Positions 5,838 through 25,246 of a stretch of DNA of 64,000 nt are shown in pieces. The notes beneath the pieces were generated by a model that ran no database searches, was not told where the DNA came from, and worked only from the letters and a program-made list of their open reading frames with translations. A program made the translations under genes and the position numbers. The stretch comes from Propionicicella superfundia DSM 22317 (lineage in GTDB: Bacteria; Actinomycetota; Actinomycetes; Propionibacteriales; Propionibacteriaceae): contig NZ_KE384020.1 in NCBI RefSeq assembly GCF_000423465.1, positions 551,671 through 615,670 on the forward strand, in the 5' to 3' direction. Each line of letters begins with the position of its first letter. The first letter of the stretch is position 1.

Positions 5838-7220
5838 TCACACACGCAGCGCGGCGAGCGTCTGCAGGGCGTGTTCCATGGGTGCTCGCTCGTGCCACAC
5901 CGGCAGCCGGAGATGGGTGCGGAACCCTTCGTACACCGAGAAGCTGGGCCCCGGCGCGAGCTTGATCCCGGCCCGCTTCCCGGCCTCGGTGAGCGCGACG
6001 GTGTCCTGGCCGGTCTCGATCCACAGCCCCGGCCCGCCGCGGACAGGACGCCACTGCCATGAGGGGAAGGCGCTGCGGACCAGATCCTCGGTGGTCGCGA
6101 GGGCGCTGCCCAGGAAGGCACGCCGTTCGATGCGCGCCTCCTCGGCCACGCCGAGCAGCGTCGTCGCCTGCAACTGGTTGAGCACGCCGACGGCGAGATC
6201 GGTGGCTTTCCGCAACTGCACGAGGCCGCGGATGCGGTCGCGATCGGCCCTGATCCACCCGACCCGGAGACCTCCCCAGAACAGCTTCGACAGGGTCCCG
6301 ACCAGGACGAGCTGGGACGGTGGCACGAGCGCCGCGAGGGTCGGGGCGGTCGGACGGCCGTGCAGGGTGAGGTCGTGGCTGCAGCAGTCCTCGACCACCG
6401 TCATCCCCGTGCGCACCGCGACGTCGGCGAGCGCGGCGCGGGCCGACGCGGTGTGCGAGATCCCCGTCGGGTTGTGGACCGAGGTCTGGCAGTACAGGAG
6501 GGTGGCGCCGCGGGCGGCGCCCCGCCCCACCAGATCGGCGTCGATGCCGTCGGCCGACAGCCGGACGCCCTCGACCCGGGCTCCGACCGCCGCCAGCGCC
6601 GACAGCGCACCCCGATAGGTGGGCTCTTCGACGAGGACGAGATCTCCGGCCGTGAGGGTGGACAGGAACGACAGCCAGGTCCCCTGCTGCGCTCCGGAGG
6701 TGACGAGGATCTCGCGGGGCGATGTCGGGATGCCGTCGCGGGTGAGCCTGTCGGCGATGGCCGACCGCAGCACGGGCAGTCCGGCCGGGAAGTAGCCGTC
6801 GGTCTCCAGGTACGGGCCGAGAACGTCCCCGCGCGTCTCCTGGAGGACGGCGCGAGCGACATGCGAGGCGGGCAGCGCCCCGCTGGAGAGGTCCTGCAGT
6901 TCGGCCTGGGTGAACGAGAACATGCGTCCGTCGGAGGCCAGGCGGTGCCGTCCACGGGACCGGACGCGGCAACCGGAGCCCTGGCGCGCGATGAGGTACC
7001 CCTCCGCCTCGAGCCGGCCGTAGGCCGACGCGACGGTTCCGCGGGACACGCCCAGGGCCTCGCCGAGCCGGCGCTGCGGCGGGAGCAGGGAGCCTGCCGC
7101 GATGAGTCCCGAGTCGATGAGCTGGGCGATGGAGGTTGCGAGCGAATCGGGCAGCACGCCGTCTCCCGCCCACTCTCCGAGCAGGTTGGCGAGCTGCGGC
7201 GCCCCGACGACCGTGGTCAT
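5838..7220 (-). CDS. MocR-type regulator (GntR HTH + aminotransferase domain)
   Basis: The 460-residue protein fuses an N-terminal GntR winged helix (residues ~20-90, RRLGEALGVSRGTVASAYGRLEAEGYLIARQGSG) to a fold-type-I aminotransferase domain. The latter has the PLP lysine in LVGTLSKLFWGGLRVGW and the QTSVHNPTG motif. MocR proteins are transcription factors that sense PLP or PLP-amino acid adducts. It diverges from the Tm-1-like/TIM-barrel operon, and a perfect 7-2-7 inverted repeat lies between them, so it probably controls that operon. Confidence 0.93.
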   Translation of the reverse strand: MTTVVGAPQLANLLGEWAGDGVLPDSLATSIAQLIDSGLIAAGSLLPPQRRLGEALGVSRGTVASAYGRLEAEGYLIARQGSGCRVRSRGRHRLASDGRMFSFTQAELQDLSSGALPASHVARAVLQETRGDVLGPYLETDGYFPAGLPVLRSAIADRLTRDGIPTSPREILVTSGAQQGTWLSFLSTLTAGDLVLVEEPTYRGALSALAAVGARVEGVRLSADGIDADLVGRGAARGATLLYCQTSVHNPTGISHTASARAALADVAVRTGMTVVEDCCSHDLTLHGRPTAPTLAALVPPSQLVLVGTLSKLFWGGLRVGWIRADRDRIRGLVQLRKATDLAVGVLNQLQATTLLGVAEEARIERRAFLGSALATTEDLVRSAFPSWQWRPVRGGPGLWIETGQDTVALTEAGKRAGIKLAPGPSFSVYEGFRTHLRLPVWHERAPMEHALQTLAALRV

Positions 7221-22863: not shown

Positions 22864-23628
22864 ATGGGCGCGAACGTGGCACTGGGCATCGACATCGGCG
22901 GCTCCGGGATCAAGGGCGCGCCCGTCGACCTGCGCACCGGCAAGATGACCGGTGAGCGCCTCCGGATCGAGACCCCGGCGCGCTCGACGCCGAAGGCGGT
23001 CGCCAAGGTGGTGCGCCAGATCGCGAGGAACTTCGCCGACGAGCTTCCGCCCGACTCCCCCATCGGCGTGACGATCCCGACCGTGGTGCAGCACGGGGTC
23101 GTGAAGACGGCGGCGAACATCGACGACGAGTGGATCGACGCGCCCGGACAGCAGATCATCGCGGAGGCGGTCGGCCGTCCGATCTCCCTCGTCAACGATG
23201 CCGATGCGGCAGGGCTGGCCGAAGTGCGCTACGGCGCGGCGAAGGGTCGTGACGGGCTGATCCTCGTCGTCACGCTCGGCACCGGAGTGGGCGTGGCGAT
23301 CGTGCACGACGGCGTTCTGATCCCGAACGCCGAGCTGGGGCACATCGAGCTGGACGGGGTGGATGCCGAGACGCGCGTCTCGGCCGCGGCGCGTGAGCGC
23401 GAGGGGCTCTCGTACCCGCAGTGGGCCGCACGCCTGCAGCGGTACTTCTCGCAGGTCGAGTTCCTGCTGTGGCCGGACCTGTTCATCGTCGGGGGCGGTG
23501 TGTCGCGCAAGGCCGACAGGTTCCTGCCCCTGCTGAAGCTGCGAACGCCGATCGTCCCGGCGGAGCTGCGCAACGGTGCGGGCATCGCCGGGGCCGCGCT
23601 GTTCGCGGCGGCCGAACGCAACAGGTGA
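22864..23628 (+). CDS. ppgK: polyphosphate glucokinase PpgK
   Basis: A ROK-family kinase that phosphorylates glucose using polyphosphate (often also ATP), typical of actinobacteria. The 254-residue protein shows the phosphate loop [19 protein letters not shown], the catalytic [10 protein letters not shown], the adenosine/phosphate region [12 protein letters not shown], and the short ELGHIEL form of the ROK signature. The ATG follows gaaggagac. A short hairpin follows the stop, then an 85-bp repeat. Confidence 0.94.
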
Positions 23629-23650: not shown

Positions 23651-23676
23651 CTGTCGGCACGACGGTCGTAGGTTCC

Positions 23677-23761
23677 ATCGAGCGCTCTGGTTCGTGCGGA
23701 AAAGCGAGAAAATCCGGCAGTTCCGGAGCGTTCACCGGGACCCGGCGCGCTTGACCGCACT
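23677..23761. repeat. 85-bp direct repeat, copy 1 (downstream of ybaK)
   Basis: This segment is about 79/85 identical by eye to 24341-24425 in the same orientation. The two copies flank ybaK. Each can fold by pairing its left end (here 23679-23687) with 23726-23734. Here the stem has one G-U and one mismatch, both of which become Watson-Crick pairs in copy 2. The interior is A-rich (ggaaaagcgagaaaa) and unlike its surroundings. No open frame looks real. Confidence 0.85.
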
Positions 23762-23779
23762 GCGTCGAGATCCTCACAG

Positions 23780-24259
23780 TCAGGCCACGACCGAGACGGG
23801 CGCGCCGTCGGTGATCCGCAGAAGGTCGTCGTAGGTCGTCGGGAAGAGCGCGTGCGGGGTTCCTCCCGCGGCCCAGATCTCGTCGAACTCGGCCAGGTCG
23901 ACATCGACGACGGTCTCGATCGGGGCGGGATGCCCGACCGGGGCGACACCCCCGATCGCCTGGCCCGTGGCGGCGCGCACCTGGTCGGCGGACGCGCGCG
24001 AGATCTTCTGCTTTCCGAGCCGGGTTGCGAGCGCGACCACGTCGACGCGGTGCGCCCCGCTCGTCATCACCAGAAGCGGCTCGCCGTCGGCGAGGAACAC
24101 GAGGCTGTTCGCGATGGCGCCGACGTCGCAGCCGATCGCCGTCGCCGCCTCCGCGGCGGTCCGTGCGGAGTCGGGCAGAATGCGCACGGCGCCGGTGATG
24201 CCGGCGGCGGCCAGCGCGTCGGCCACCTTCTGGGCGGATGCGGGCAGGGACATGCTCAT
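23780..24259 (-). CDS. YbaK/EbsC family aminoacyl-tRNA deacylase
   Basis: The 159-residue protein belongs to the YbaK/ProX editing-domain family, which hydrolyses mischarged tRNAs in trans. It shows IANSLVFLADGEPLLVMTSGAHRVD, the conserved LGKQKISRASADQV with the catalytic Lys, and GQAIGGVAPVGH, the signature glycine loop. ATG 24259 follows gagagagg; upstream in-frame ATGs lack a ribosome site. Which mischarged tRNA it clears cannot be told. Its 5' and 3' flanks each carry a copy of the 85-bp repeat. Confidence 0.93.
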   Translation of the reverse strand: MSMSLPASAQKVADALAAAGITGAVRILPDSARTAAEAATAIGCDVGAIANSLVFLADGEPLLVMTSGAHRVDVVALATRLGKQKISRASADQVRAATGQAIGGVAPVGHPAPIETVVDVDLAEFDEIWAAGGTPHALFPTTYDDLLRITDGAPVSVVA

Positions 24260-24340
24260 CGGACCTCTCTCCATCGCTGGTGGCAGCCTAGTGTTCGCGT
24301 GACGATCCCCTTCCGGCTCGTCACGTCGTGGCACCCCCAC

Positions 24341-24425
24341 ATCGAACGCTCTGGTTCGTGCGGAAAAGCGAGAAAACCCGGCAACTTCGGAGCGTTCGCC
24401 GGGACCCGGCGCGCTTGACCGCACT
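24341..24425. repeat. 85-bp direct repeat, copy 2 (upstream of ybaK)
   Basis: This is the second copy, 82 bp upstream of the ybaK start and 16 bp before the iron box. The terminal stem CGAACGCTC (24343-24351) with GAGCGTTCG (24390-24398) is a perfect 9-bp pairing. Copy 1 differs at these stem positions in ways that keep most pairing, which hints at structure being retained. Confidence 0.85.
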
Positions 24426-24441: not shown

Positions 24442-24460
24442 TTTGGGTAGGCACACCTAA
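24442..24460. promoter_or_regulatory. DtxR/IdeR-type iron box
   Basis: The 19-mer at 24442-24460 (tttgggtaggcacacctaa) matches the IdeR/DtxR consensus TWAGGTWAGSCTWACCTWA at 15 of 19 positions by eye. It lies 27 bp before the siderophore-interacting protein gene, so iron-loaded DtxR/IdeR is expected to repress it. Confidence 0.75.
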
Positions 24461-24487: not shown

Positions 24488-25246
24488 ATGGGTCGGGGCT
24501 GGCAAGGGGCGGTCATGCGGGTGCTCGGAGCGCGCGACCACGAACTCACCCTCCTCTCCGCCCACGACGTCTGCACCGGATTCCGGCGGCTGCGCTTCTC
24601 GTCGCCGACGCTGCTCGCCGAGGTCGCCCCTGAGCCGGCCGCGTGGGTGCGGATCTGGTTCCCCGACCCCGCGCACCCCGGCCGGGAGGTCCAGCGGGGG
24701 TACACCATCGCCGAGGCCGACCCGGAGACCGGCGAACTCGACATCGACGTGGTGATCCACGAGCCGGCGGGCCCTGCGTCGGCGTGGGCGACGACGGCCG
24801 TGCCGGGAGCGACGGTGATGGCGCAGTCGTACGGCTCGGAGCCGTTCGTGGCGGATCCGGCTGCGCGTGGACTGCTCCTGGTGGGCGACCCGTCGGCCGT
24901 CCCGGCGGTCAACGGGATCCTACGGGCCGTGCCGGACGTGCCGGTCGAGCTGTTCCTCGAACAGCACCACGACCACGAGAGGGACATCCCGCTGGCACCC
25001 CACCCGTCGCTGCACGTCACGCGGGTGCCGCACTCCCCCGGAGCCCTCGCAGGCTCCATCGGTTCGCGTGACTGGGCGAACTGGCAGGTGTGGGCCGCCG
25101 GCGAGTCCGCGGCCCTGAGGGCGTTGCGTGCGCTGCGCGGCCGTCCCGGCGGGACCAAGGCCAACACCTATCTGCAGGCGTACTGGATCCGTGGCAGGGC
25201 GATGGGCCGCACGCGCGACGACACCTCCGGCCCGGTCCCTGACTGA
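24488..25246 (+). CDS. siderophore-interacting protein (ferric-siderophore reductase)
   Basis: The 252-residue protein is a ViuB/YqjH-type flavoreductase that releases iron from imported siderophores using NAD(P)H. It has an N-terminal FAD-binding domain with RGYTIAEADPETGELDIDVVIH and GPASAWA, and a C-terminal domain with GLLLVGDPSAVPAVNGIL and WAAGESAALRALRALRG. Its promoter region carries a DtxR/IdeR box, fitting iron repression. It stands alone; no siderophore uptake genes are adjacent in the window. Confidence 0.92.
   Translation: MGRGWQGAVMRVLGARDHELTLLSAHDVCTGFRRLRFSSPTLLAEVAPEPAAWVRIWFPDPAHPGREVQRGYTIAEADPETGELDIDVVIHEPAGPASAWATTAVPGATVMAQSYGSEPFVADPAARGLLLVGDPSAVPAVNGILRAVPDVPVELFLEQHHDHERDIPLAPHPSLHVTRVPHSPGALAGSIGSRDWANWQVWAAGESAALRALRALRGRPGGTKANTYLQAYWIRGRAMGRTRDDTSGPVPD

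Follow-up and report, generated by a model that had tools for sequence, protein, structure and literature searches.

A dispersed family of 62-bp inverted repeats in Propionicicella superfundia, one local pair of which flanks a ybaK-like gene

Genomic Context of the ybaK-like Gene and Its Flanking Repeats

The window, i.e., the whole 64,000-nucleotide stretch of Propionicicella superfundia DSM 22317 that was analyzed, carries a ybaK-like gene between a ROK family kinase gene and a siderophore-interacting protein (SIP) gene, and one copy of a direct repeat lies on either side of it (Table 1). Copy 1 sits between two gene 3′ ends, and copy 2 occupies a divergent gap. A repeat search followed by a recount gave an 86-nt pair that starts 664 nt apart and is identical at 80 of 86 positions (93%), with six differences, which bears out the claim of an earlier note on this DNA that two similar direct repeats flank ybaK. 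The likeness ends abruptly on both sides, and a 30-mer from the repeat occurs twice in the window at up to three mismatches, against 0.00 times in 100 shuffles. The earlier note had also described two of the six differences as turning a G-U pair and a mismatch into Watson–Crick pairs, and both are as claimed (4/53 goes from G-U to A-U and 1/56 from C-A to C-G, in the numbering of the family described below); pair 4/53 varies freely across that family, and at position 56 copy 1 alone is off the consensus. The "AT-rich core" of the same note holds in a relative sense, with 64% GC in each copy vs 71% for the window. The predicted RNA folds of the two copies have z-scores of −2.6 and −2.3 on the plus strand and −0.95 and −1.7 on the minus strand. 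An assembly artefact is an unlikely source of the second copy, because the copies differ in their flanks and from each other within one 1.02-Mb contig.

Table 1. Coordinates in the window of the genes, repeat copies, and half-sites at the ybaK locus
Feature	Position	Strand	Remarks
ROK family kinase gene, left neighbor	22864..23628	+	Pfam PF00480
Copy 1 of 86-bp direct repeat	23676..23761	+	62-bp element and 24 bp of common right flank; convergent gap ROK/ybaK
Family element (62-bp unit), copy 1	23676..23737	+	56-bp core 23679-23734; model score 54.9 bits
Left half-site, copy 1	23676..23700	+	Divergent, TTC variant; half-site matrix score 16.4
Right half-site, copy 1	23713..23737	-	Near consensus; half-site matrix score 30.9
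Copy 1, right flank outside the 62-bp unit	23738..23761	.	Common to copy 2
ybaK-like gene, aminoacyl-tRNA editing domain	23780..24253	-	157 aa; Pfam PF04073; between the copies, outside the element
Copy 2 of 86-bp direct repeat	24340..24425	+	62-bp element and 24 bp of common right flank; divergent gap ybaK/SIP
Family element (62-bp unit), copy 2	24340..24401	+	56-bp core 24343-24398; model score 52.6 bits
Left half-site, copy 2	24340..24364	+	Divergent, TTC variant; half-site matrix score 18.3
Right half-site, copy 2	24377..24401	-	Half-site matrix score 22.7
Copy 2, right flank outside the 62-bp unit	24402..24425	.	Common to copy 1
Siderophore-interacting protein (SIP) gene, right neighbor	24488..25246	+	Pfam PF04954 and PF08021

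The ybaK-like gene resembles its neighbors in composition (GC 73%, third codon position 92%, same codon-position profile). Its closest matches in the collection of named species belong to Microbacterium (up to 71%); the best match in another genome of its own taxonomic family reaches 65%, and relatives at 53–65% identity are common there. Contigs labelled Vibrio cholerae 35D and Planococcus (L034 and L049) carry ybaK genes that rank among the Microbacterium matches; these labels may be wrong, or the contigs may be contaminants. Within the flanks examined, the order ROK–ybaK–SIP occurred in none of 80 named ybaK loci and none of 58 SIP or ybaK loci of other genomes; likewise within the flanks examined, none of the 80 had a ROK or SIP neighbor, and neither ybaK nor SIP was seen at any of 29 ROK loci from other genomes. 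At one locus of the same taxonomic family (L311), ybaK stands close to a SIP homologue in divergent orientation. A search of the 80 named loci with the covariance model described below yielded no copy of the repeat family, and the best match among them (31.8 bits, L090) was rejected on inspection as a different palindrome. A search for tRNA and tmRNA genes found none.

Two further short stretches lie at this locus. Upstream of the SIP gene, TTTGGGTAGGCACACCTAA (window 24442-24460) agrees at 15 of 19 letters with a DtxR/IdeR iron-box consensus, and copy 2 stops just short of it. Over the ybaK stop codon, the 28-bp stretch ACTGCGTCGAGATCCTCRCAGTCAGGCC (window 23759-23786) recurs on another contig of the genome (C9; L028 1514-1541), where, judged by eye, it also ends in an apparent minus-strand stop codon.

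Architecture of the Dyad Element

Each of the two ybaK-flanking segments contains one member of a genome-wide dyad family. In the element, a 12-bp center separates two 25-bp half-sites (CGCCGARCGCTCCnnAACTGCCGGA) in inverted orientation, and the 62-bp unit can be written as CGC, a 56-bp core, and GCG, outside which the flanks are near random. When the host genome (G000; 3.62 Mb, 23 contigs, a 98% complete draft) was searched with copy 1 and its flanks, the full-length match was confined to the two ybaK-flanking places, and 38 more short match rows fell in their majority on the core. Alignment of 28 loci revealed one common dyad element, and the covariance model built from them recognized at least 65 distinct places in the genome, with the best 150 of 4748 candidates scored. 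One weak place (C6:95967, E 0.41) was dropped; the 64 copies kept each have a best E of at most 3.3e-5. The geometry of the core is fixed, GCTC standing at positions 6–9 and GAGC at positions 48–51 in 64/64 kept copies, and the model match spans 68 nt in 63 copies and 67 nt in one. The median core identity between copies is 0.77, i.e., most differ by about 23%. The dispersed repeat family is real and is a more interesting object than the ybaK pair, which is one local duplicate within it.

Beyond the paired half-sites, some copies carry an extra half-site in the same orientation exactly 31 bp outside their own; scored with the half-site matrix, this offset gives values above 0 on 15 of 128 sides and above 5 on 14. 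The largest count at any of 109 other offsets from 20 to 129 is 2, and neighboring tandem elements explain at least some of the counts at these offsets. Over 17 cases chosen for a closer look, extra half-sites have a mean likeness of 0.71 to their neighbors, hardly above the 0.68 to unrelated half-sites. The case at C2:247441 and, by their repeated spacers, those at C4:133700 and C3:396360 look like tandem duplications. At C2:378519 (L006 1469-1610), extra right half-sites follow one another with a 33-bp period and near-identical spacers, unlike the 31-bp cases, and are likely a tandem duplication. Strict matches to the half-site number 90 in the genome; one of them is isolated, and no recognized transposase was seen beside it by eye.

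Pairing and Conservation of the Two Arms

The dyad could in principle reflect an RNA or DNA hairpin, for which changes in one arm should be answered in the other. Among the 28 aligned copies, 86.4% of stem cells are paired vs 86.0% with one arm shuffled (128 of 500 shuffles as high), and changes on both sides of a pair number 4 against 5.5 expected. Across the 64 copies, pairing per position is near independence (0.62 vs 0.62 at 4/53; 0.47 vs 0.44 at 11/46), and whole-arm shuffling gives 1280.5 ± 9.6 Watson–Crick pairs vs 1298 of 1600 observed (113 of 3000 as high). Restriction to 57 non-redundant copies gives 1160 of 1425 Watson–Crick pairs vs 1137.6 ± 9.2 (29 of 3000 as high, or 17 of 3000 when G-U is counted), a weak excess, roughly one-sixth of the maximum attainable by re-pairing the arms (1277). 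Since a small excess persists after the removal of near-duplicates, some hairpin constraint is possible. Beyond the element, copy-specific pairing of the flanks (287 pairs vs 266 ± 12; 199 of 5000 shuffles) points away from full independence and is too weak to carry a conclusion.

The two arms mirror each other in conservation, with an entropy correlation of 0.85–0.88, and seven position pairs are invariant in 64/64 copies; both the mirroring and the invariance are partly ascertainment, as similarity was the basis on which the copies were picked out. As RNA, the elements have stable predicted folds (median z −6.1), which is what any palindrome would show. An Rfam scan of the whole window returned 0 matches at the gathering score, and no T-rich run was found beside the elements, the 10 nt beyond the element holding on average 1.3 and 1.5 T, on either strand.

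Placement and Copying of the Elements

The elements are mostly intergenic and skewed to gene 3′ ends. With the weak place included, 61 of 65 places are free of predicted genes and 4 overlap one. The 61 gene-free places comprise 27 convergent, 28 same-direction, and 6 divergent gaps, against 9, 29, and 21, respectively, among 59 baseline gaps of at least 70 bp from six stretches; genes were called with a rough codon-based finder, and the baseline stretches include some elements. Relative to same-direction genes, the orientation of the element is about even by eye.

Two kinds of copy pairs can be told apart by their surroundings. The copies at C1:903117 and C8:40599 are alike at 61 of 62 positions with flank identities of 27% and 37%, and such close copies in unrelated flanks show that a 62-bp unit has moved. 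Other pairs have flanks in common: C1:96168 and C2:261563 (L160 and L161) lie in a 256-bp segment with one element that is 99.6% identical at distant places, C13:43561 and C2:98873 are 94% identical across 145 bp, and the tandem pairs of contigs C9 and C5 likewise have common flanks. The ybaK pair resembles these flank-sharing pairs, as its match extends 24 bp to the right of the unit, and it looks like a local duplication of an element plus flank, from a once-mobile repeat.

No clear target-site duplication was found with boundaries placed 0–7 bp outside the core and lengths of 2–9, where 1 of 64 combinations reached z 2.8. The Y1_Tnp domain (PF01797) of RAYT transposases had 0 matches in the 98%-complete draft, and 6 of 14 control genomes were positive. 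Among 20 proteins around three copy-rich stretches, which form part of the genes there, no transposase was recognized.

Occurrence in Other Genomes

In the search of the genus, the host genome was the sole member. Across 197 genomes of the taxonomic family, matches at 1e-6 arose in two, the host and G165, and the latter match (L139 1501-1558) was rejected as a perfect 58-bp palindrome without the 56-bp geometry. The element was thus not found at high score in the 196 other genomes, with the best 26 candidates per genome scored under strict filters, through which weak or diverged families could escape. A search with a pattern of the outer ends gave matches in 12 of 198 genomes, with 58 sites in the host; besides it, G176 alone has more than one site, namely five palindromes. 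Four of these are 68 bp and one is 67 bp long, and G079 has one of 68 bp (L246-L251); L248 and L251 have flanks in common, so that one palindrome site is inherited across two genomes. A looser pattern (GCGCTCC, a gap of 46–76, and GGAGCGC) matched 158 of 197 genomes and was dropped, its reversed control being similar or higher in most of the rows listed.

Phage and plasmid collections queried with one good copy gave no match. In IMG/VR, a 17-bp half-site pattern hit 62 stretches with one match each; these were treated as chance, as none of them contains an element according to the model at E 0.1. Among the papers listed by searches of the open-licence literature, no earlier account of the 62-bp repeat family was found. 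As a separate observation, locus L344 holds, at about 6600–6700, two near copies of CTGACCGCCAnnTTGnGAGGCATACG close together; they are absent from the window and are perhaps another short repeat family.

Origin and Possible Role

We propose, with a probability of roughly 0.6, that the elements form a lineage-specific, non-coding miniature repeat family of REPIN-like build, in which the ybaK pair is a local duplicate and no ybaK-specific function is needed; in this analysis, no role tied to ybaK was found. The family would have spread by copy transposition, and each half-site is probably read as double-stranded DNA by a protein, as suggested by the mirrored conservation, the rigid spacing, the exact 31-bp phase of some extra half-sites, and arm pairing only weakly above chance. 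Copies may persist downstream of genes, where they would do little harm. The ybaK pair would stem from one element that was duplicated locally together with part of its flank; copy 1, which has the usual convergent setting, would be the likelier parent and copy 2, which lies in a divergent gap, the daughter. Several observations weigh against the proposal: no transposase could be linked to the family in the searches described, no target-site duplication is clear, most copies are about 23% apart in the core, so that movement today would be hypothetical, and arm pairing retains a small excess. Recombination between the two copies could in principle delete ybaK.

The suggestions of the earlier note fare unevenly under this proposal. 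Its "mobile palindromic element" survives in modified form, as a dyad family with 64 or more dispersed copies, whose 62-bp unit has reached flanks of no common origin, and its "scars of a duplication" are upheld by the 24 bp of right flank that the pair has in common beyond the unit and that most other copies lack. A "paired regulatory RNA" finds no backing in the Rfam scan, the T content, or the arm pairing, which is at or barely above that of shuffled arms, and an operator for ybaK is not supported, as the family adjoins many unrelated genes, mainly at their 3′ ends. The view that "structure matters" is not upheld, as the arms vary almost independently, and the two "compensating" differences are expected variation around the consensus. 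By the test that the note set itself, no relative yielded the 85-mer and there is next to no covariation, yet the genome-wide family is real.

Several other explanations have to be weighed against a miniature repeat family. The elements might be sites of a host DNA-binding or chromosome-organizing protein, their spread being secondary. Inverted and 31-bp tandem half-sites (about three helical turns) would bring the subunits of a protein to the same face of the helix; moreover, conservation is mirrored (entropy correlation 0.85–0.88) between nearly independent arms, the core length is fixed, and the 31-bp phase is exact among units that are mostly no more alike than unrelated ones. However, the elements were not found at high score in 196 other genomes of the taxonomic family, which is unexpected for a core chromosomal function, the whole 62-bp unit has been copied to new flanks, and no candidate protein was found in this analysis, so we regard this explanation as unlikely. 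A broader version is advanced tentatively and against the odds: a modular system of double-strand DNA sites in a single lineage, built of 25-bp half-sites that are either inverted around the 12-bp center or tandem in 31-bp phase and are read by a non-RAYT transposase or a chromosome-organizing factor, with related 67–68 bp systems in another genus.

It is quite improbable that the elements are transcription terminators or mRNA 3′-end stabilizers that came to share a consensus by chance. The skew to gene 3′ ends and convergent gaps and the stable predicted RNA folds would suit such a role, but few T lie beside the element (means of 1.3 and 1.5 per 10 nt), arm pairing is almost at the shuffled-arm level, six placements are divergent, ybaK copy 2 among them, and a terminator would not need the strong sequence constraint that is seen. 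Least credible, and to be entertained only at long odds, is the arrival of ybaK as a cassette between two repeat copies, through horizontal transfer or as a composite mobile unit. The closest named matches of ybaK in Microbacterium (up to 71%, vs 65% within its own family) and a ROK–ybaK–SIP order not seen in the other loci examined can be cited for it; against this, the GC content and codon-position profile of ybaK equal those of its neighbors (73%, third position 92%), family relatives at 53–65% identity are common, the 80 ybaK loci hold no copy of the repeat family, and at L311 of the same taxonomic family ybaK lies near a SIP homologue and diverges from it. As a minor instance, the ybaK pair would illustrate that copies of a miniature repeat multiply locally too, with some flank.

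Comparison with Known Miniature Repeats

Miniature inverted-repeat transposable elements (MITEs) are short, non-coding, dispersed sequences with inverted ends and without a gene of their own. The family described here is likewise short, non-coding, dispersed, gene-free, and bounded by inverted ends; it differs from MITEs in that no clear target-site duplication was found and in having almost no interior between its halves, and no parent transposon was recognized beside the one isolated strict half-site. The palindromes of G176 and G079, from another genus of the same taxonomic family, have the same outer ends (CGAGCGCTCC...GGAGCGCTCG) and a near-fixed length, whereas their interior and their length (67–68 bp) differ; kinship with the present family is only suggestive, since these genomes were picked by their common ends.

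The closest likeness is to REPINs, which Bertels and Rainey (2011; PMC3116915) describe as REP doublets forming hairpins. Like the REPINs described there, the present elements consist of two short conserved motifs, inverted, extragenic, and separated by a spacer of set length; doublets are far commoner than singlets, as reflected here in a single isolated strict half-site; and both show occasional tandem or clustered extra units and a population of related copies in one host (PMC3116915). There are also differences. The family here has no RAYT-type (Y1_Tnp) match in its own genome; compensatory changes, reported there as common on the two sides of the hairpin, are near absent here apart from the small excess of arm pairing; and the center is 12 bp, while the commonest inter-REP spacings given there are 71 and 110 bp (PMC3116915).

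The GTAG- and CGTC-tagged REPs, as portrayed in another account (PMC3733652), are also short palindromic intergenic repeats that occur as dimers and arrays and prefer convergent and same-direction gaps; the present element is longer (62 bp) and of fixed length. GTAG, CGTC, and their complements are absent from the family consensus, and within 7 bp of the core the 64 copies show GTAG 1, CTAC 3, CGTC 14, and GACG 8 times, i.e., no constant end tag. The CGTC class is itself said there to be without a dedicated transposase (PMC3733652), so a missing RAYT is not fatal for a wider "REP-like" label.

Because the family lacks both a RAYT match and an end tag and shows far less compensatory change than is reported for REPINs, it is not filed as a REPIN; it is read as a REP/REPIN-like miniature repeat and labelled REPIN-like. 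Miniature repeats that come in pairs are understood best in genomes with an accompanying RAYT transposase, and a family with a rigid geometry and an exact 31-bp phase but no RAYT match would be a test case for distinguishing spread by some other enzyme from retention as protein sites.
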